This document shows positions 13,921 to 24,769 of a stretch of 64,000 nt of DNA, piece after piece. A model generated the notes under the pieces. It did no database searches, was not told the DNA's origin, and worked only from the letters and a program-made list of their open reading frames with translations. Within the stretch, counting starts at the first letter, position 1. The number at the start of each line of letters is the position of its first letter. Location: NCBI RefSeq assembly GCF_003590945.1, contig NZ_QYUK01000016.1, positions 186,001 to 250,000 of the forward strand, in the 5' to 3' direction. The position numbers and the translations under genes are program-made. Source of the DNA: Oleomonas cavernae (GTDB taxonomy: Bacteria; Pseudomonadota; Alphaproteobacteria; Zavarziniales; Zavarziniaceae).

Positions 13921-14523
13921 ATGGCCGAGCGCGATTCCGAAACCAAGATCCTGGTCATCGACGACAACCGCATCCGCGCCTCGATCATCGAGGAGGGGCT
14001 GCGCGAGGCGGGCTATGCCCACGTCACGGTGATCGTCGAGCGCCTGCCCCTGGTGCGCAGCATCGTCGAGGCCGACCCGGACGTGGTCTTCATCGACCTG
14101 GAACATCCCCAGCGCGACGTGCTCGAGCACATGTTCCAGGTCAGCCGCGCCATCAGCCGGCCCGTCGCCATGTTCGTCGACCGCTCGGACAAGGCGATGA
14201 TCGAGGCGGCGATCGAGGCCGGGGTTTCCGCCTATATCGTCAACGGCTTGAAGAAGGAACGGCTGAAACCGATCCTGGACATGGCGATCAGCCGCTTCAA
14301 CGCCTTCAGCCGCATGCGCGACGAATTGTACCGGACGCGCAAGGCCCTGGACGACCGCAAGCTGGTCGACCGGGCGAAGGGCGTGCTGATGAAGCTCAAA
14401 GGGATCGGCGAGGATGAAGCCTATGGCCTGCTGCGGCGCACGGCGATGAACGAGAACCGACGGATCGCCGAGGTGGCGCAGAGTATTTTGACCGCGTCGA
14501 CACTGTTGTCGGGGGACAAGTGA
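13921..14523 (+). CDS. nasT: ANTAR-domain response regulator NasT (antiterminator)
   Basis: 200 residues. The N-terminal receiver-like domain (KILVIDDNRIRASIIEEGL, DPDVVFIDLEHPQ) keeps the acidic pocket. The C-terminal ANTAR helix bundle is LVDRAKGVLMKLKGIGEDEA followed by YGLLRRTAMNENRRIAEVA. NasT binds paired hexaloop hairpins in nitrate-operon leaders and prevents termination; NasS holds it inactive when nitrate and nitrite are absent. Its stop overlaps the nasS start, and the leader at 16095-16268 carries exactly such hairpins. I chose the ATG at 13921 because earlier in-frame starts lie within the ahcY terminator. Confidence 0.92.
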   Translation: MAERDSETKILVIDDNRIRASIIEEGLREAGYAHVTVIVERLPLVRSIVEADPDVVFIDLEHPQRDVLEHMFQVSRAISRPVAMFVDRSDKAMIEAAIEAGVSAYIVNGLKKERLKPILDMAISRFNAFSRMRDELYRTRKALDDRKLVDRAKGVLMKLKGIGEDEAYGLLRRTAMNENRRIAEVAQSILTASTLLSGDK

Positions 14524-15779
14524 TGGGTGAACCCGAGAAACCCTTTGCCATCCGGGCCGGCTTCATCCCGCTGCTGGACGCCGCCATCCTGATCATCGCC
14601 AAGATCCGCGGCTTCGCCGAGGAGGAGGGCATCGAACTCACCCTGATCCGCGAAGCCTCGTGGGCCAGCATCAGGGACCGGCTGGCGCTGGGCCATTTCG
14701 ACGTCGCCCATATGCTGGCGCCGATGCCGATCGCCGCCTCCCTGGGCCTGACCCCGTTCGGCGGCTCGGTGATCACGCCCATGTGCATGGGGCTGGGCGG
14801 CAACGCGGTCACGGTCTCCAACGCGGTCTGGCACGGCATGAACATGGCCGGTGCCGACAACAGCGGCGACCCCATGACCATGGCCGTGGCCCTGCGCAGC
14901 GTGGTGGAAAGCCGCAAGGCTTCGGCCAAGCCGCCGCTGACCTTCGCCGTGGTCCACCCCTATTCCAGCCACAATTATGAACTGCGCTACTGGCTGGCGG
15001 CGGCCGGGATCGACCCGCGCGTCGATATCGGGCTGACCGTGGTGCCGCCGCCCTACATGGCCGATGCCCTGGCCGGCGGCCACATCGACGGCTATTGCGT
15101 GGGCGAGCCGTGGAACAGCGCCGCCGTGGTGGCCGGCGTCGGCCACATCGTCACCACCACCACGGCCATCTGGCGCTCCAGCCCCGAGAAGGTGCTGGGC
15201 ATGCGCAGCGATTGGGCCGACCAGAACCCGGAAGCCGCCGCCGCCCTGCTGCGGGCCATGCACCGGGCCTCGCTGTGGTGCGACTCGCCCAAGAACACCC
15301 AGGAAATGGTCGAGTTGCTGTCGACGCCCAGCTACCTCGATGTCGCCCAGTCGACGCTCATGGCCGGCCTGACCGGGCGGATCGCCCTGGGCGCCGGGCA
15401 GCCGCAACTGGTGCCCGAGTTCCGTTCCTTCGCGCGCCGCGCCGCCACCTTCCCCTGGATCAGCCACGGCCTGTGGTTCTTCAGCCAGATGGTGCGCTGG
15501 GGCCAGCTCGAGCTGACGCCGGCCACGCTCGAGACCGTGCGCCGCTGCATTCGCCCGGACCTGTACCGCAAGGCCCTGGGGCCGTTGGGCGTCGCCCTGC
15601 CCAACGCCAGCTCGAAAGTCGAAGGGGCGCTGACCATGGAGACGCCGGTGGCCACGGCCAACGGCCGGCTGTTCCTGGGGCCTGACGGCTTCTTCGACGG
15701 CCTGGTCTTCGACCCCGACCGGATCGAGGACTATGTCGCCGCCTTTGCCATCCGCGGGCCGAGCGCGATCAGCGACTGA
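14523..15779 (+). CDS. nasS: Nitrate/nitrite sensor NasS (NrtA/CmpA-like, cytoplasmic)
   Basis: About 418 residues, related to the nitrate-binding protein NrtA but without a signal peptide: it begins MGEPEKPFAIRAGFIPLLDA. Shared features are EASWASIRDRLALGHFDVAH, LAPMPIAASLGL, VVPPPYMADALAGGHIDGYC and VGEPWNSAAV. The lack of an export signal and coupling to nasT (TGATG overlap) mark it as the NasS sensor, which binds nitrate or nitrite and then releases NasT. A GTG at 14520 is an alternative start. Confidence 0.9.
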   Translation: MGEPEKPFAIRAGFIPLLDAAILIIAKIRGFAEEEGIELTLIREASWASIRDRLALGHFDVAHMLAPMPIAASLGLTPFGGSVITPMCMGLGGNAVTVSNAVWHGMNMAGADNSGDPMTMAVALRSVVESRKASAKPPLTFAVVHPYSSHNYELRYWLAAAGIDPRVDIGLTVVPPPYMADALAGGHIDGYCVGEPWNSAAVVAGVGHIVTTTTAIWRSSPEKVLGMRSDWADQNPEAAAALLRAMHRASLWCDSPKNTQEMVELLSTPSYLDVAQSTLMAGLTGRIALGAGQPQLVPEFRSFARRAATFPWISHGLWFFSQMVRWGQLELTPATLETVRRCIRPDLYRKALGPLGVALPNASSKVEGALTMETPVATANGRLFLGPDGFFDGLVFDPDRIEDYVAAFAIRGPSAISD

Positions 15780-15787
15780 TGGCCCCT

Positions 15788-15896
15788 GTCGTCATTCCGG
15801 CGAAGGCCGGAATCCATGGCAGGGGCAGGCGAGATCTGTCCGGCAAGGTCTCGTCTCGCACTACGATGGATTCCGGCCTTCGCCGGAATGACGATA
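15788..15896. repeat. Intergenic inverted repeat, family A
   Basis: GTCATTCCGGCGAAGGCCGG on the left and its reverse complement on the right, with about 45 unique bases between. It is a variant of the repeat at 5487-5617 with TTCC in place of TCCC. It begins 9 bases after the nasS stop and may end that transcript. Confidence 0.8.
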
Positions 15897-15938
15897 GAGC
15901 GGGTGAGGCATTCTTATAGTTCGCTCAGAAATGACGCG

Positions 15939-15957
15939 CTGCACAATTTTTTAGCAG
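15939..15957. promoter_or_regulatory. Possible NtrC-type enhancer site
   Basis: CTGCACAATTTTTTAGCAG has the GC-N11-GC spacing of NtrC sites and lies about 145 bases before the predicted sigma-54 start. The half-sites are not full consensus, so this is tentative. Confidence 0.3.
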
Positions 15958-16065
15958 CCCGCTGGCCAATAAGGCATCACTGCGCCGCGAGGCGGCAACT
16001 GCTGCGCCCCGGCACCCGCTGCCTAACCCCCTGATATCGAACGAAAAACCCGATCGTCGCCCACT

Positions 16066-16081
16066 TGGCACGCTGTGTGCA
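16066..16081 (+). promoter_or_regulatory. Sigma-54 (-24/-12) promoter of the nrt-nir-nas operon
   Basis: TGGCACGCTGTGTGCA matches TGGCACG-N4-TTGCW with one mismatch, with the invariant GG and GC 12 bases apart. Transcription would start about 12 bases downstream, near 16093, just before the first ANTAR hairpin at 16095. RpoN with NtrC is the usual nitrogen-limitation input for assimilatory nitrate genes. Confidence 0.75.
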
Positions 16082-16094
16082 GTGAATAGGGTGC

Positions 16095-16143
16095 GAGCCA
16101 ACGATGGCTCAACCTCCCGGTCAGGCCAATGGCGGCAGACCGG
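16095..16143 (+). promoter_or_regulatory. ANTAR two-hairpin RNA motif (NasT target)
   Basis: Hairpin 1 is GAGCC-AACGAT-GGCTC (16095-16110). Hairpin 2 is CCGGTC, AG, GCC-AATGGC-GGC, A, GACCGG (16117-16143). Both have hexaloops with A at position 1 and G at position 4, the defining feature of ANTAR targets, and are separated by 6 bases. They begin at the predicted transcription start and precede the terminator at 16202-16268. Confidence 0.85.
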
Positions 16144-16201
16144 CGATCGCCCTTCCGGGCACCGACTTTAGAACATCTGGCCCAGAGTTGGGCACGTGGC
16201 A

Positions 16202-16268
16202 GCGCTGCCGACGGAACTGTACCGATTACCAAATCGGTTCCGGTTTTCAGTCGTGCGGCGCTTTTTTT
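16202..16268 (+). terminator. Leader terminator (attenuator) upstream of nrtA
   Basis: GCGCTGCCGAC (16202-16212) pairs with GTCGTGCGGCGC (16250-16261) with one bulged base, followed by TTTTTTT (16262-16268). The large loop holds an inner hairpin ACCGATT-ACCA-AATCGGT. It ends 42 bases before the nrtA start, so it would stop transcription unless NasT acts on the upstream hairpins. Confidence 0.82.
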
Positions 16269-16310
16269 ATGCCTGTTTTGCGCAGGCGGGGCTTCGAGAA
16301 GGAACGGGCA

Positions 16311-17606
16311 GTGAGCAAGATCGTTACACGCAGCATCAATCGCCGCGACCTCCTCAAGGTCTCGAGCACCGCCGCCCTGCTGGGCGCCGTCGGCGCGGCC
16401 TTCCCGCGCGGCGTCTTTGCCGAGGGCGCAGGCCCCGAGACCCCCAAGGCGACGCTGGGCTTCATCGCCCTGACCGACAGCGCGCCGCTGATCATCGCCA
16501 AGGAAAAAGGCCTCTACGCCAAATACGGCATGACCGAGGTCACCGTGGGCAAGCAGGCCTCGTGGGGCGCCACCCGCGACAACCTCGAGCTGGGCTCGGC
16601 CGGCGGCGGCATCGACGGCGCCCATATCCTGTCGCCCATGCCCTACCTGATTTCGACCGGCAAGATCACCAAGGGCAACGCGCCCCTGCCCATGTACCTG
16701 CTCTCGCGCCTCAACATCAACGGCCAGTGCATCTCGGTCGCCGGCGCCTACAAGGGCCTTGGCATCGGCACCCAGGCGGCCGCGCTGAAGGATGCCTTCG
16801 CCAAGGCCAAGGCCGAAGGCAAGGAAGTTAAGTGCGCGGTTACCTTCCCCGGCGGCACCCACGACCTGTGGATGCGCTACTGGCTGGCGGCCAATGGCAT
16901 CGATCCCAACAAGGATGTCTCGACCATCGTCGTGCCGCCGCCCCAGATGGTGGCCAACATGAAGGTCAACACCATGGAAGCCTTCTGCGTGGGCGAGCCG
17001 TGGAACGCCCAGCTCGTCAACCAGGGCATCGGCTTTTCCGCCCTGACCACCGGCGAGCTGTGGGGCAATCACCCCGAAAAGGCCTTCGCCATGCGGGCCG
17101 ACTGGGTCGACGCCAACCCCAAGGCGGCCAAGGCCCTGCTGATGGCCGTCCAGGAAGCCGCGCAATGGTGCGACAAGCCCGAGAACAAGGAAGAGATGTG
17201 CTCCATCGTCGGCGGCCGTGACTATTTCAAGGTGCCGGTCGAGGACATTCTGGGCCGCGCCAAGGGCGAGATCGATTACGGCGACGGCCGCAAGGTGACC
17301 GACAGCCCGCACATCATGAAGTACTGGAACGACTTCGCCTCCTATCCCTGGCCCAGCCACGACCTGTGGTTCCTGACCGAGGATATCCGCTGGGGTTACC
17401 TGCCGGCCGACCTGGACACCAAGGCCCTGGTGGCCAAGGTGAACCGTGAGGATCTGTGGCGTGACGCGGCGGCGGCCATCGGGGCGCCGGCGGCGGAAAT
17501 CCCGACCTCCAAGTCACGCGGAGTCGAGACCTTCTTCGACGGCAAGACCTTCGACCCGGCCGATCCGGCCGCCTATCTCGCCAGCCTGGCCATCAAGGCC
17601 GTGTAA
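16311..17606 (+). CDS. nrtA: Nitrate ABC transporter substrate-binding protein
   Basis: 431 residues from the GTG at 16311, chosen because AAGGAA lies 7-12 bases upstream and it gives a compact Tat signal: INRRDLLKVSSTAALLGAVG with cleavage near VFA. The mature part has the NrtA/CmpA pattern (TLGFIALTDSAPLIIAKEKG, KQASWGATRDNLELGSAGGG, FCVGEPWNAQLVNQGIGFSA). It binds nitrate or nitrite in the periplasm for NrtBC. It is close to NasS in sequence but exported. It is first in the nrtABC-nirBD-nasA-cobA operon, under the sigma-54 promoter and NasT attenuator. An ATG at 16270 would be an alternative start within the terminator region. Confidence 0.93.
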   Translation: MSKIVTRSINRRDLLKVSSTAALLGAVGAAFPRGVFAEGAGPETPKATLGFIALTDSAPLIIAKEKGLYAKYGMTEVTVGKQASWGATRDNLELGSAGGGIDGAHILSPMPYLISTGKITKGNAPLPMYLLSRLNINGQCISVAGAYKGLGIGTQAAALKDAFAKAKAEGKEVKCAVTFPGGTHDLWMRYWLAANGIDPNKDVSTIVVPPPQMVANMKVNTMEAFCVGEPWNAQLVNQGIGFSALTTGELWGNHPEKAFAMRADWVDANPKAAKALLMAVQEAAQWCDKPENKEEMCSIVGGRDYFKVPVEDILGRAKGEIDYGDGRKVTDSPHIMKYWNDFASYPWPSHDLWFLTEDIRWGYLPADLDTKALVAKVNREDLWRDAAAAIGAPAAEIPTSKSRGVETFFDGKTFDPADPAAYLASLAIKAV

Positions 17607-17630: not shown

Positions 17631-18505
17631 ATGACCGTCCATAGTGACCAGCTTGCCAAACTCCTCGAGGAGCCGGTGCGCAAGCCGCTGATCGATGCAG
17701 CGCTCCTCGCCAAGGCGGGGGCATGGCTGAAGCGCAAGGCCATCAACCTGGCCCCGCCGGTCGTGATGCTGATCCTGCTGTTCGGCCTGTGGGAGATTCT
17801 GTGCCGGGGGCCGGTGCCCCCCTGCCGCCCCCCTCCAAGGTCATCGCCGATACCTGGGAACTGATCATCGATCCGTTCTACGACAACGGCGGCACCGACG
17901 TCGGGCTGTTCTGGCAGATCGCCGCCAGCCTCACCCGGGTCGCGGAGGGTTTCGCGATCTCGGCCGTCGCCGGCATCCTGCTGGGGGTGCTGATCGGCCA
18001 GTCGTCGCTGGCCTTCCGTGGCCTCGACCCGATCTTCCAGGTCCTGCGCACGGTGCCGCCGCTGGCTTGGCTGCCCTTGTCGCTGGCCGCCTTCCAGTCG
18101 GCCAATCCCTCGGCCATCTTCGTCATCGCCATCACGTCGGTGTGGCCGATCATCCTCAACACCGCGGTCGGTATCCGCAACATCCCGCAGGACTATCGCA
18201 ACGTCGCCAAGGTGCTGCGCCTGTCGGGCCCGGAATTCTTCTTCAAGATCATGCTGCCGGCGACCGTGCCCTTCATGTTCACCGGCCTGCGCATCGGCAT
18301 CGGCCTGTCGTGGCTGGCCATCGTCGCGGCGGAAATGCTGATCGGCGGCGTCGGCATCGGCTTCTTCATCTGGGATGCCTGGAATTCCTCGCTGATCAGC
18401 GAAATCATCATCGCCCTGATCGCGGTCGGCCTGGTCGGCTTCGTGCTGGACCGGCTGATCGGGGCCTTGGGCAACCGCCTCGGCGGCAGCTACAGCCAAC
18501 GGTAA
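17631..18505 (+). CDS. nrtB: Nitrate ABC transporter permease, apparent -1 frameshift
   Basis: About 291 residues if one base is restored near 17805-17830, where the frame of ILLFGLWEILCRGP switches to GAPLPPPSKVIADTWELIID inside a G/C-rich stretch. Downstream are membrane segments (VAEGFAISAVAGILLGVLIG, LSWLAIVAAEMLIGGVGIGF, IIIALIAVGLVGFVLDRLIG) and the cytoplasmic EAA-type loop YRNVAKVLRLSGPEFFFKIM that contacts the ATPase. Start: ATG at 17631 with GGAAGG upstream. It lies between nrtA and nrtC in the operon. An operon with an intact importer fits better with a sequencing error than with a dead permease. Confidence 0.88.
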
Positions 18506-21769: not shown

Positions 21770-22113
21770 CCGCCTATACCCCTCACGACTGGATCGATGT
21801 CGGCGCGGTCGAGGACGTGCCCCTGCGCGGCGCCCGTGTCGTCCACACCGCCAGCGGCGATATCGCGGTGTTCCGCACCGGCGAAGGCAAGATCTTCGCC
21901 CTGCGCGACCGCTGCCCCCACAAGAACGGCCCCCTGAGCCAGGGCATCGTCCACGACGACGGCGTCACCTGCCCCTTGCACAACTGGGTGATCGACCTCG
22001 CCACCGGCCAGGCACGCGGCGCCGATGTCGGCTGCACCGGCGTCATCCCGGTGCGGGCCGAGCGCGGCCGCATCCATCTGGGCGTTGCCGCCCTGGCCGG
22101 GCGCGTCGCCTGA
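21766..22113 (+). CDS. nirD: Nitrite reductase small subunit, Rieske type
   Basis: 115 residues with a Rieske-like fold. The cluster segments are CPHKNGPLSQG and CPLHNWVIDLATG, giving Cys-x-His and Cys-x2-His ligands, so this NirD can bind a [2Fe-2S] cluster, unlike the enterobacterial type that lost the ligands. It forms the NirBD enzyme. It overlaps nirB (ATGA) and nasA (TGATG), which indicates translational coupling. Confidence 0.9.
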   Translation: MTAYTPHDWIDVGAVEDVPLRGARVVHTASGDIAVFRTGEGKIFALRDRCPHKNGPLSQGIVHDDGVTCPLHNWVIDLATGQARGADVGCTGVIPVRAERGRIHLGVAALAGRVA

Positions 22114-24769
22114 TGGGCGCGTGCGAGACCGTCCGCACCACCTGCCCCTATTGCGGGGTGGGCTGCGGCGTGCTCGCCACGCCCCAAGCCGACGGCAGCG
22201 TCGCCATCAAGGGCGACCCCGATCACCCGGCCAATTTCGGCCGGCTGTGCTCCAAGGGATCTGCGCTCGGCGAAACCCTGAGTCTCGACGATCGGCTGCT
22301 GATGCCGGTCGTCGAGGGAGAGCGGGCGACATGGTCCCAGGCCCTCGGCCTTGTCGCCCGCCGCTTCCAGGAGACGATTGCCGAGCATGGCCCGGACTCG
22401 GTTGCCTTCTACGTCTCGGGGCAGTTGCTGACCGAGGATTACTACGTCGCCAACAAGCTGATGAAGGGCTTCATCGGCTCGGCCAACATCGACACCAACA
22501 GCCGGCTGTGCATGGCCTCCTCGGTGGCCGGGCACAAGCGCGCCTTCGGCACCGACACGGTGCCCGGCTGCTACGAGGACCTGGAAGAGGCCGACCTGGT
22601 GGTCCTGGTCGGCTCCAACCTGGCCTGGTGCCACCCGGTGCTGTTCCAGCGCCTGGCCGCAGCCAAGGCGGCACGCGGCATCCAGGTGGTTACCATCGAC
22701 CCGCGCCGCACCGCCACCAGCGAACTGGCCGACCTGCATTTGGGGCTAGAGCCGGGCTCGGACGTCGCGCTGTTCAACGGCCTGCTCGACCATCTGGTGC
22801 AGGCCGGCCTGGCCGACCAGACCTTCATCGCCGAACACACCACCGGCATCGTCGAGACCCTGGCGGTGGCCGAGTCGACCGGCATCAAGGGCGCCCAGGC
22901 GGCGACCGGGCTGACACCCGAGCAGCTCACCCGCTTCTACCGCCTGTTCGCCCGCCACGAAAAGGTGGTGACGGTCTATAGCCAGGGCGTGAACCAGTCG
23001 AGCGCCGGCACCGACAAGGTCAATGCCATCATCAATTGCCACCTGCTCACCGGCCGCATCGGCCGGCCGGGCATGGGGCCGTTCTCGGTCACCGGCCAGC
23101 CCAACGCCATGGGCGGGCGCGAAGTCGGCGGCCTCGCCAACCAGCTCGCCGCCCATCTGGAACTGGGCGTGCCCGAGCACCGCGCCCTGGTGCAGGCGTT
23201 CTGGGCCAGCCCCACGATCGCCGACAAGCCGGGCCTGAAGGCCGTCGACCTGTTCGAGGCGGTCCATGACGGCCGCGTCAAGGCGCTGTGGATCATGGCC
23301 ACCAACCCGGTCGACAGCCTGCCCCAGGCGGATCGGGTGGCCGAGGCCCTGCGGCGCTGCCCCTTCGTCGTGGTCTCGGACGTGATCGGCAAGACCGACA
23401 CCACGGCCTACGGCCACGTTCTCCTGCCCGCCACGGCCTGGGGCGAGAAGGACGGCACGGTGACCAATTCCGAACGCCGCATCTCGCGCCAGCGCCCCTT
23501 CCTCGATCCCCCGGCGAAACCCGGCCCGACTGGTGGGCGATGGCGCAGGTGGCGGGCCGCATGGGCTTTGCCGGCTTCGACTACGACGGCCCCGCCGCCG
23601 TCTACCGCGAACATGCCGCCCTTTCCGCCCACGGCAACGACGGCAGCCGCGATTTCGACCTGGGCGCCCACGGTGCCATCGACGCGGCCGCCTATGACGC
23701 GCTGGAACCGTTCCAGTGGCCCCTGCCGGCCGGGGGCGCGAGCCGCGCCCGCTTCTTCGCCGACGGCAATTTCTATACCGCCGACGGCAAGGCACGTTTC
23801 GTCCCCACCCCGCCCCGTACCCCCATGAGCCGGACCAGCGCCCAACGCCCGCTGATCCTCAACACCGGCCGCGTGCGTGACCAGTGGCATACCATGACGC
23901 GCACGGGCAAGACCCCGCGCCTGACCAGCCACCTGGCCGAGCCCTTCGTCGAAATCAACCCCGCCGACGCCGACCGCCTGGGCCTGCGCCCCGCGACCCT
24001 GGCGGTCGTGGCCAGCGACCATGGCGAGGCCCTGCTGCGGGTGCTGATCACCGACCGGCAGCGTGTCGGTTCGGTCTTCGCGCCGATCCACTGGACCGAC
24101 CAGCAGGCCGCCAAGGCGCGGGTCGATGCCCTCGTCGCCGCCCATGTCGATCCGCTCTCGGGCCAGCCCGAGGCCAAGTTCACCCCGGTTTCGGTGGCGC
24201 CCTTCGCCGCCGCCTGGTACGGCTTTGCCGTCAGCGCCAATCGCCCCGCGGTGGGCGAGACCGAATACTGGGCCCTGGCGCCGGCGCTGGGCGGCTTCCG
24301 CCTGGAGCTGGCCGGCCACGAGGTACCGGCGGATTGGGGCGACTGGGTGCGCCGCCTGATGGGCCTGAGCGAGACGGTGGAGGTTCTGGCCTATCACGAC
24401 GAGGCCCACGGCCGCTATCGCTTTGCCGCCTTCGAGGGCGAGAGCCTGGTCGGCGCCCTGTTCGTCTCGCCCGAGCCGGTGGAGATTTCCCGCGGTTGGG
24501 TGGTGGGGCAACTGGGCGCGACGATCGATGCTGCCGCCCGCTTCCGCATCCTGGCCGGGCGCGGCGGCGAGGCCGGGGCCGATCCCGGGGCCACGATCTG
24601 CTCGTGCTTCTCGGTCGGGATCAACCAGATTACCGCCGTCATCCGCGGCGGCCAGGCCACCAGTGTCGAGGCGGTCGGCGCCTGCCTGAAGGCGGGAACC
24701 AACTGCGGCTCGTGCCGCATGGAAATCGGGAGGCTGATCGATGCCCACGCCGTCGCGAAAGCCGGTTGA
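22113..24769 (+). CDS. nasA: Assimilatory nitrate reductase catalytic subunit, apparent -1 frameshift
   Basis: About 885 residues if one base is restored in the five-C run at 23508-23512, where FLDPP switches frame to the GETRPDWWAMAQVAGRMGFA segment. The N-terminus binds [4Fe-4S] (TCPYCGVGCGVLA, then LCSKG). The molybdopterin domains follow (NIDTNSRLCMASSVAGHKRA, NQSSAGTDKVNAIINCHLLT). The C-terminus adds a BFD-like [2Fe-2S] domain (ICSCFSVGINQITAVIRGGQ, CLKAGTNCGSCRMEIG), as in NasA/NasC proteins that take electrons from a reductase. It reduces nitrate to nitrite in the cytoplasm using Mo-bis-MGD. No separate electron-donor subunit is in the operon. Both halves are fully conserved, so the frameshift is probably an error. 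Confidence 0.92.

Follow-up and report, generated by a model that had tools for sequence, protein, structure and literature searches.

One of the leaders reportedly under NasST control is that of Azotobacter nasAB. The wider picture, in which NasT antiterminates nas and nos operons, nas genes are subject to NtrC-dependent control and the RNA target is a dual hexaloop, was already established (PMC5424462, PMC3795266, PMC6759348, PMC6712156, PMC12316311, PMC7496416). In Paracoccus nasA and Bradyrhizobium nosR, nitrate releases NasT, whose target is a leader containing hairpins and a terminator, as is proposed below for the locus considered here. The nitrate- or nitrite-dependent release of NasT from NasS is known for Paracoccus (PMC3795266), where nas genes are under NtrBC control and nasTS, as here, adjoins its target. 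Not every hairpin of such a leader need matter, since a mutation of hairpin HI in Paracoccus was reported to reduce expression severely while one of HII had little effect (PMC5424462). The H1, H2 and H3 region of the Bradyrhizobium nosR leader, as it is presented in the text of PMC6712156, was read by us as P1, terminator and P2, and not as extra hexaloops.

Beyond NasT, the second hairpin (P2) overlaps the terminator in ANTAR attenuators generally described (PMC3369931, PMC3369936). Klebsiella nasF and its regulator NasR have in common with the present leader the P1 and P2 hexaloops with A at position 1 and G at position 4 (A1/G4), a C:G loop-closing pair (reported from NasR SELEX; PMC7496416), the overlap of P2 with the terminator and a response to nitrate (predicted for the present leader), but NasR is a one-component NIT-ANTAR protein and there are two hexaloops only. 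The Enterococcus eutP, eutG, eutS and eutA leaders likewise carry a dual hexaloop with an antiterminator overlapping the terminator; they differ in using phosphorylated EutV instead of release from NasS, in their linkers of 5–12 nt and in having two hexaloops per terminator. Shortening the eutP linker to 3 nt is reported to have drastically reduced induction (PMC3369931), and adding 20 nt to the hairpin linker abolished antitermination by EutV (PMC8934654). The authors of the EutV–RNA structure argue that one dimer cannot bind both hexaloops simultaneously and propose that a recruitment hairpin passes it on to the antiterminator hairpin (PMC8934654). The EutX/Rli55 sRNA, like the present leader, has more than two hexaloops (a dual motif plus a single one), but that sRNA sequesters EutV in trans whereas the array here precedes a coding operon. 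For Desulfotomaculum acetoxidans, PMC3369931 counts at least 13 ANTAR attenuation systems over six units, several elements per transcription unit on average; these are described as separate attenuation systems, whereas here two pairs stand before one terminator. Compared with the NasST-controlled nas and nos leaders, the present one has an extra upstream pair of hexaloops, and its P1 is the third hairpin. The open-access articles searched, PMC8164766 included, yielded no account of a NasT leader with three or four hexaloops ahead of a single terminator, although an earlier one may exist. It is the four-hexaloop NasT leader that appears to be new here; NasT attenuation itself was already known.

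The leader lies in a 64-kb window, by which is meant the whole stretch of DNA that was analysed, from a genome grouped with five others in one genus (Zavarzinia-type), the nearest named relatives being Zavarzinia aquatilis and Z. marina. The Zavarzinia set with a close nasT consists of five genomes, namely the window genome, G001 (Z. marina), G002, G004 and G005. The sixth genome of the genus, G003, is 74% complete and has a distant ANTAR gene only, and G006 is a genome of the same family outside Zavarzinia. Gene order and Pfam matches give the NasST arrangement, with an ANTAR, response-regulator-like gene followed directly by an NrtA-like one (Table 1), and bear out a preliminary description that had placed nasT and nasS just upstream of the leader. 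The nasS gene is 80–82% identical in four Zavarzinia relatives and nrtA is 83–84% identical in three. The GTG start of nrtA has AGGA upstream, and a GTG stands at the aligned place in three of five relatives; Pfam NMT1_2 gives 353 bits for the longer nrtA open frame, 16104–17603. That frame is open upstream across the whole leader (16104–17606), as far as an ATG starting within the loop of HP1, but it was set aside in favour of the GTG at 16311. Pfam matches downstream of nrtA are to a permease, an ABC ATPase, a nitrite reductase resembling NirB and a molybdopterin oxidoreductase, read here as the nitrate reductase. The nrtB-like permease (17632–18505) is split over two frames with a one-base gap in a G/C-rich run against a relative, which points to a sequencing error or a recent frame break, and the molybdopterin reductase (22113–24769) consists of two overlapping frames (22113–23828 and 23288–24769), suggesting a second frame break in the operon.

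Table 1. Features of the nasTS–nrtA region, in window coordinates
Feature	Position	Strand	Details
nasT	13921..14523	+	receiver + ANTAR RNA-binding protein; Pfam ANTAR 74.8 bits, Response_reg 43.2 bits
nasS	14523..15779	+	nitrate/nitrite sensor, NMT1_2 family, NrtA-like; Pfam NMT1_2 264.7 bits
Candidate NtrC site	15940..15956	+	TGCACAATTTTTTAGCA; the window's only exact match to the pattern printed in PMC5424462; weak
Sigma-54 −24/−12 promoter	16065..16080	+	TTGGCACG-N5-TGC; sole exact match in the window
HP1	16095..16110	+	GAGCC-AACGAT-GGCTC; loop AACGAT; starts 2–3 nt past predicted +1
HP2	16117..16143	+	inner GCC-AATGGC-GGC 16125–16136, loop AATGGC; outer stem CCGGTC/GACCGG
HP3 (P1, predicted recruitment hairpin)	16180..16193	+	GCCC-AGAGTT-GGGC; loop AGAGTT; aligns to P1 elsewhere
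HP4 (P2, predicted antiterminator)	16197..16210	+	TGGC-AGCGCT-GCCG; loop AGCGCT; overlaps terminator 5' arm
Intrinsic terminator stem-loop	16201..16262	+	−34.3 kcal/mol
Seven-T (U7) tract	16262..16268	+	from the sequence
nrtA, first structural gene	16311..17606	+	GTG start; twin-arginine-like signal RRDLLK (by eye)

Two further elements of the window belong to its description. Between nasS and the promoter, at 15786–15897, lies an inverted repeat with two 52-nt arms, 85% complementary, of the GTCATTCCGGCGAAGGCCGGAATCCATGG type. Its core, GGCGAAGGCCGG (or GGCGAAAGCCGG), occurs in seven copies in the window, two of them in the repeat itself and the others near 5.5–5.6 kb, 25.6–25.7 kb and 36.9 kb. 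The repeat is absent from the leaders extracted from four genus-mates and is, by its look, a dispersed REP-like element. No Rfam family reached its gathering score in the leader; elsewhere in the window there is one SAM_alpha riboswitch, on the minus strand at 306–381 (56.3 bits).

Searching the leader for ANNGNN loops closed by stems of 3 bp or more returned four hairpins, HP1 to HP4. An A1/G4 hexaloop on a stem of at least 3 bp is present in HP3 and HP4 and also in HP1 and HP2, the two that the preliminary description had named and that were confirmed with their loops, and the loop-closing pair is C:G in all four. Four non-overlapping hexaloops in 120 nt were reached by none of 20,000 dinucleotide shuffles of 16093–16212 (three were reached by 3), and the window has no second such cluster on either strand. 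The leader as a whole (16090–16270) has a fold z of −5.26, with 0 of 200 shuffles as stable. The strong terminator and 7-T run reported before nrtA were also found, even though a simple terminator scanner listed none in 15700–16400, presumably because the stem is interrupted and the loop exceeds the scanner limit of 8.

The 5' arm of the terminator starts at 16201, the first base of the HP4 loop, and the HP4 loop and 3' arm (16201–16210) lie inside it, which makes HP3 and HP4 the standard ANTAR P1/P2 pair. The 3' end of HP2, in contrast, is 57 nt ahead of the terminator stem and has no base in common with it. The earlier view of a complete two-hairpin NasT attenuator was right as to the kind of element, but there are four hexaloops, and the sequence indicates that the operative pair is most likely HP3/HP4, with HP1/HP2 as an extra upstream pair. 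The accompanying statement that all parts could be read from the sequence was an overstatement, since HP3 and HP4 had been overlooked and it is they, not the pair that was named, that can act on the terminator. The linker is 3 nt between HP3 and HP4 and 6 nt between HP1 and the outer stem of HP2. The former falls outside the 5–12 nt range of the E. faecalis eut leaders and equals the length of the shortened eutP linker, which counts against the HP3/HP4 reading; however, P1–P2 linkers of 1–6 nt are usual in NasT leaders (54 retained pairs), so the eut range was not taken as defining. HP1 is complete about 150 nt ahead of the T-tract, as against roughly 70 nt for the P1 of a standard leader. An independent first terminator after HP2 was considered and rejected, since inspection by eye of the five Zavarzinia leaders showed no stretch of four Ts from HP2 to HP3.

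Folding along the growing transcript showed HP4 and the terminator to be mutually exclusive. In the window species the stem probability of HP4 fell from 1.0 in a transcript that ends at +123 to 0.0 at +177, and with the addition of the terminator 3' arm it went from 0.91 to 0 in G002, from 0.80 to 0 in G001 and from 1.0 to 0 in G006. HP4 formed poorly ahead of the terminator in G005 (0.21), and no switch was seen in G004, with 0.11 before and 0.20 after. The equilibrium-fold probability of HP3 was 0.02–0.52 in the window species and 0.25–1.0 in the other four Zavarzinia; it is weak in the former because 16162–16169 can pair with 16184–16191, and the strong upstream pair might for that reason matter more here. 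HP1 and HP2 of the window species had probabilities of 0.98–1.0 in folds past +100, and were thus more stable than HP3. Full-length folds gave only 0.05 for HP2 of G005 and 0.12 for HP1 of G001.

The promoter that had been proposed is an exact −24/−12 box, and this GG-N10-GC element, together with rpoN in the genome (RpoN 411 bits), identifies it as of the sigma-54 type. With up to two mismatches the pattern had 20 matches in the window against about 31 expected by chance, and all six leaders compared within the order have an aligned TGGCACG-N5-TGC box. By the GG-N10-GC spacing rule, we take the transcript to start at about 16092–16093. A sigma-70 promoter for the leader was rejected, as a simple scan of 15700–16400 returned none. 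The genome has ntrC (NtrC 718 bits), and a candidate NtrC site starts 126 nt upstream of the sigma-54 box. The pattern used is that of Paracoccus as printed in PMC5424462; 0.23 exact matches are expected in 64 kb and at least one was seen in 21 of 100 shuffles. The other Zavarzinia fit it loosely, with 2–3 mismatches. Up to two mismatches were found in 21 of 43 leaders and up to one in 3, compared with 200 permuted patterns, for which the mean was 5.6 and the maximum 22. Joint control by nitrogen limitation and nitrate, which had been suggested before, is the most likely logic, with the NtrC and RpoN genes present and an exact match to the NtrC pattern upstream.

The four hexaloop hairpins keep their order throughout the five Zavarzinia genomes that have a close nasT, a layout that rests on five genomes of one genus. 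G4 is kept in 20 of 20 loops and A1 in 18 of 20, the two exceptions being HP2 and HP4 of Z. marina, where G is at position 1; its four hexaloops therefore count only if G1 is allowed. By hairpin, HP1 has A1 and G4 in 6 of 6 leaders (the five Zavarzinia and G006), HP2 has G4 in 5 of 5 and A1 in 4 of 5 Zavarzinia, and HP3 has both in 5 of 5. Changes on both sides of the stem that preserve pairing were seen, in these few sequences, at two positions of HP1, two of the inner and three of the outer stem of HP2, and one HP1 position is unpaired in each of G005 and G001. For these counts the HP1–HP2 pairs were registered by hand on the loop, as the MAFFT alignment had put the outer stem out of register. 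The G006 leader has HP1, a hairpin with the loop GCCGCA and a P2 with the loop GACGCC over the terminator (loops by eye), with probabilities of 1.0 for HP1, 1.0 for the GCCGCA hairpin and 1.0 falling to 0.0 for P2.

The comparison covered 96 nasT loci (the window, 15 more and 80 from GTDB genomes). An A1/G4 P1/P2 pair with P2 pairing into a terminator was present at 55 of the 96, from which the removal of L054 (spurious) and L046 (a duplicate of L032) left 54 pairs, L037 having two. The other 41 loci stood outside the pair analyses except for L034 and L035 (G001 and G006); many are from Bradyrhizobium or Rhizobium, where the target may not be downstream of nasTS. The usual layout is a sigma-54 box, about 50 nt, P1, 1–6 nt and P2/terminator. 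HP3, HP4 and the terminator of the window align with 21 other alphaproteobacterial nasTS-linked leaders, HP3 and HP4 falling exactly at P1 and P2. In this alignment of 22 leaders, 99.0% of P1+P2 cells are paired with a covariation score of 0.250 against 0.145 in shuffles, and 92.5% of P1+terminator cells are paired with 40 double-change cells against 12.2 (0 of 500 shuffles); both figures, and the loop invariance, are in part inflated by the selection of leaders for A1/G4 hexaloops and pairing, and related sequences can beat covariation shuffles. Both-side changes occur at 6 of 11 terminator pairs in these 22 leaders, which were chosen for such pairing. The outer pair of P2 (columns 29–40) and the terminator pair 40–91 share column 40 and co-change in two sequences, and the latter pair is unpaired in 7 of the 22.

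Independently of that selection, a covariance model of the alignment, R1, recovered two leaders that the selection had missed and that were outside the training set, those of G001 (43.1 bits) and G006 (32.8 bits); the window leader (44.9 bits) was inside that set. The next place in the window genome had 20.1 bits (E 0.16), and further NasT leaders in that genome were rejected, R1 giving none above this score. Among 386 alphaproteobacterial genomes drawn, 27 had a match at E ≤0.001. Two genomes of one genus, G305 (L154/L172) and G224 (L155/L173/L174), had three such matches each, perhaps a small NasT regulon. In L160 the presumed terminator loop (by eye) contains an additional ANNGNN hairpin (AGCGTT).

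Extra hexaloops were counted on stems of at least 4 bp in the segment from the predicted start to P1 of 74 leaders, 5 from Zavarzinia and 69 others. Twenty of the 74 were added from R1 searches with hand-set P1 offsets, L159 and L163, which have no A1/G4 P1, being given the default offset; in 7 of the 74, where the sigma-54 box went unrecognised, the segment was taken as the 60 nt immediately preceding P1. Near-duplicates were left out (L132, L140–L142, L152, L162 and L166), as were four that by eye did not look like clear NasT leaders: L168, L169 (despite a sigma-54-like box), L170 (despite one ANNGNN hairpin) and L171. An extra A1/G4 hexaloop was found in 13 of the 69 non-Zavarzinia leaders, against 18 matches in the other 15 loop classes together, and was absent from 56. 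After de-duplication there were 11 in 57 leaders, all C:G-closed, against 13 C:G-closed in the other 15 classes together, or about one per class (binomial about 7e-8), and the minus strand of the same segments gave a single A1/G4 hexaloop. The contrast is smaller at a 3-bp threshold (A1/G4 12, the two classes that follow 7 and 6), and the inner stem of HP2 has only 3 bp; the counts depend on the chosen threshold and the hand-set offsets, and the leaders are related. The extra hexaloop lies 8–23 nt before P1 in 9 of the 11 and about 40 nt before it in Methylocapsa and Labrys. Two extra A1/G4 hexaloops upstream of P1 were seen, in this sample, only in Zavarzinia. G1 with G4 kept recurs among NasT leader hexaloops (L143 from G001, L144 from G006, L158, L159, L163 and L164, partly by eye), several leaders showing it in P1 (by eye), and the loop rule looks looser in the leaders compared, with G4 kept and position 1 sometimes G.

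A single ANTAR protein, NasT, was found with PF03861 (E ≤0.01) in the window genome, which is 96% complete, so that every hexaloop is presumably a target of NasT; the other six genomes of the order also have one each. NasT aligns to EutV (6wsh) and to 1s8n. Counted along the 6wsh alignment, its R146, K147, R151, Y168 and M176 fall on R142, K143, K147, Y164 and M172 of EutV, which are named as RNA contacts in PMC8934654. Residue 168 (14422–14424), the G4-stacking position in EutV, is Tyr in the window species, while the other four Zavarzinia have His. It is Phe in 16 of the 96 loci, largely Rhizobium/Agrobacterium records.

The leader element is very probably a NasT attenuator, and we consider it probable that it is a NasST-controlled transcription attenuator in which HP3 and HP4 are the working pair for one terminator. 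The grounds are the four hairpins, their conservation in the genus, the exclusivity of HP4 and the terminator, the promoter box and NasT as the sole ANTAR protein found. A plainer account keeps HP3, HP4 and the terminator as an ordinary two-hairpin attenuator and makes HP1 and HP2 a structured leader with no role for NasT, or a decayed duplicate. It fits the greater frequency of the canonical pair alone outside Zavarzinia, the absence (by eye) of a U-tract after HP1 and HP2, and the displacement of one or the other in the full-length fold of some relatives. We nevertheless hold it to be unlikely: HP1 and HP2 keep the hexaloop, G4 and their stems, with changes on both sides, in relatives whose NasT is 77–82% identical, and extra A1/G4 hexaloops are enriched in unrelated leaders. 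The wiring first proposed, with HP1 and HP2 as the NasT pair that directly blocks the terminator, has in its favour that both hairpins are real, are A1/G4 and outdo HP3 in stability, but it is very improbable and was rejected for want of any base common to HP1/HP2 and the terminator, and P2 overlaps the terminator in comparable leaders and in published ANTAR systems.

Two further proposals concern what the upstream hairpins might do. The terminated leader of about 175 nt, which keeps HP1 to HP3, might titrate free NasT and so set a threshold, as EutX/Rli55 does for EutV. Three hexaloops do lie outside the terminator, and EutX, a dual motif with an additional single hexaloop, is described as sequestering EutV (PMC8934654); a separate promoter or riboswitch was not seen here, however, and the copy number of a cis leader may be too low, so this idea, although compatible with the attenuator reading, is rated improbable. 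Two hairpin pairs could in principle also serve two proteins, but PF03861 found only NasT in the 96%-complete window genome, and a second ANTAR protein acting on HP1 and HP2 was rejected as scarcely credible.

As a NasST-controlled attenuator working through HP3 and HP4, the leader would operate as follows, with the binding of NasT, the response to nitrate and the action of NtrC assumed from published studies of NasST and of ANTAR proteins. When nitrogen is limiting, NtrC-P and RpoN would start the transcript at about 16093. Without nitrate, NasS would hold NasT, HP4 would melt into the terminator and transcription would stop near 16268. Nitrate or nitrite would free NasT from NasS, and HP1 and HP2, the first to be made, may load it beside the polymerase, after which NasT would occupy HP3 (P1) and HP4 (P2). 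With HP4 held by NasT, the terminator could not close, and nrtA and the rest of the operon would be transcribed. More broadly, and as a tentative suggestion that may well prove wrong, NasT leaders could be modular arrays of two, three or four hexaloops per terminator, in which upstream sites would load NasT dimers and relay them along the nascent RNA towards the antiterminator or, once transcription has terminated, act as a NasT sponge, and the number of hairpins would tune the threshold or sharpness of the nitrate response. The apparently looser rule at loop position 1 in NasT leaders is relevant to any search for ANTAR targets. Leaders with two, three and four hexaloops before a single terminator offer a natural series in which to study how an ANTAR dimer uses them, by hand-off or simultaneous binding, and to examine cooperativity and titration.
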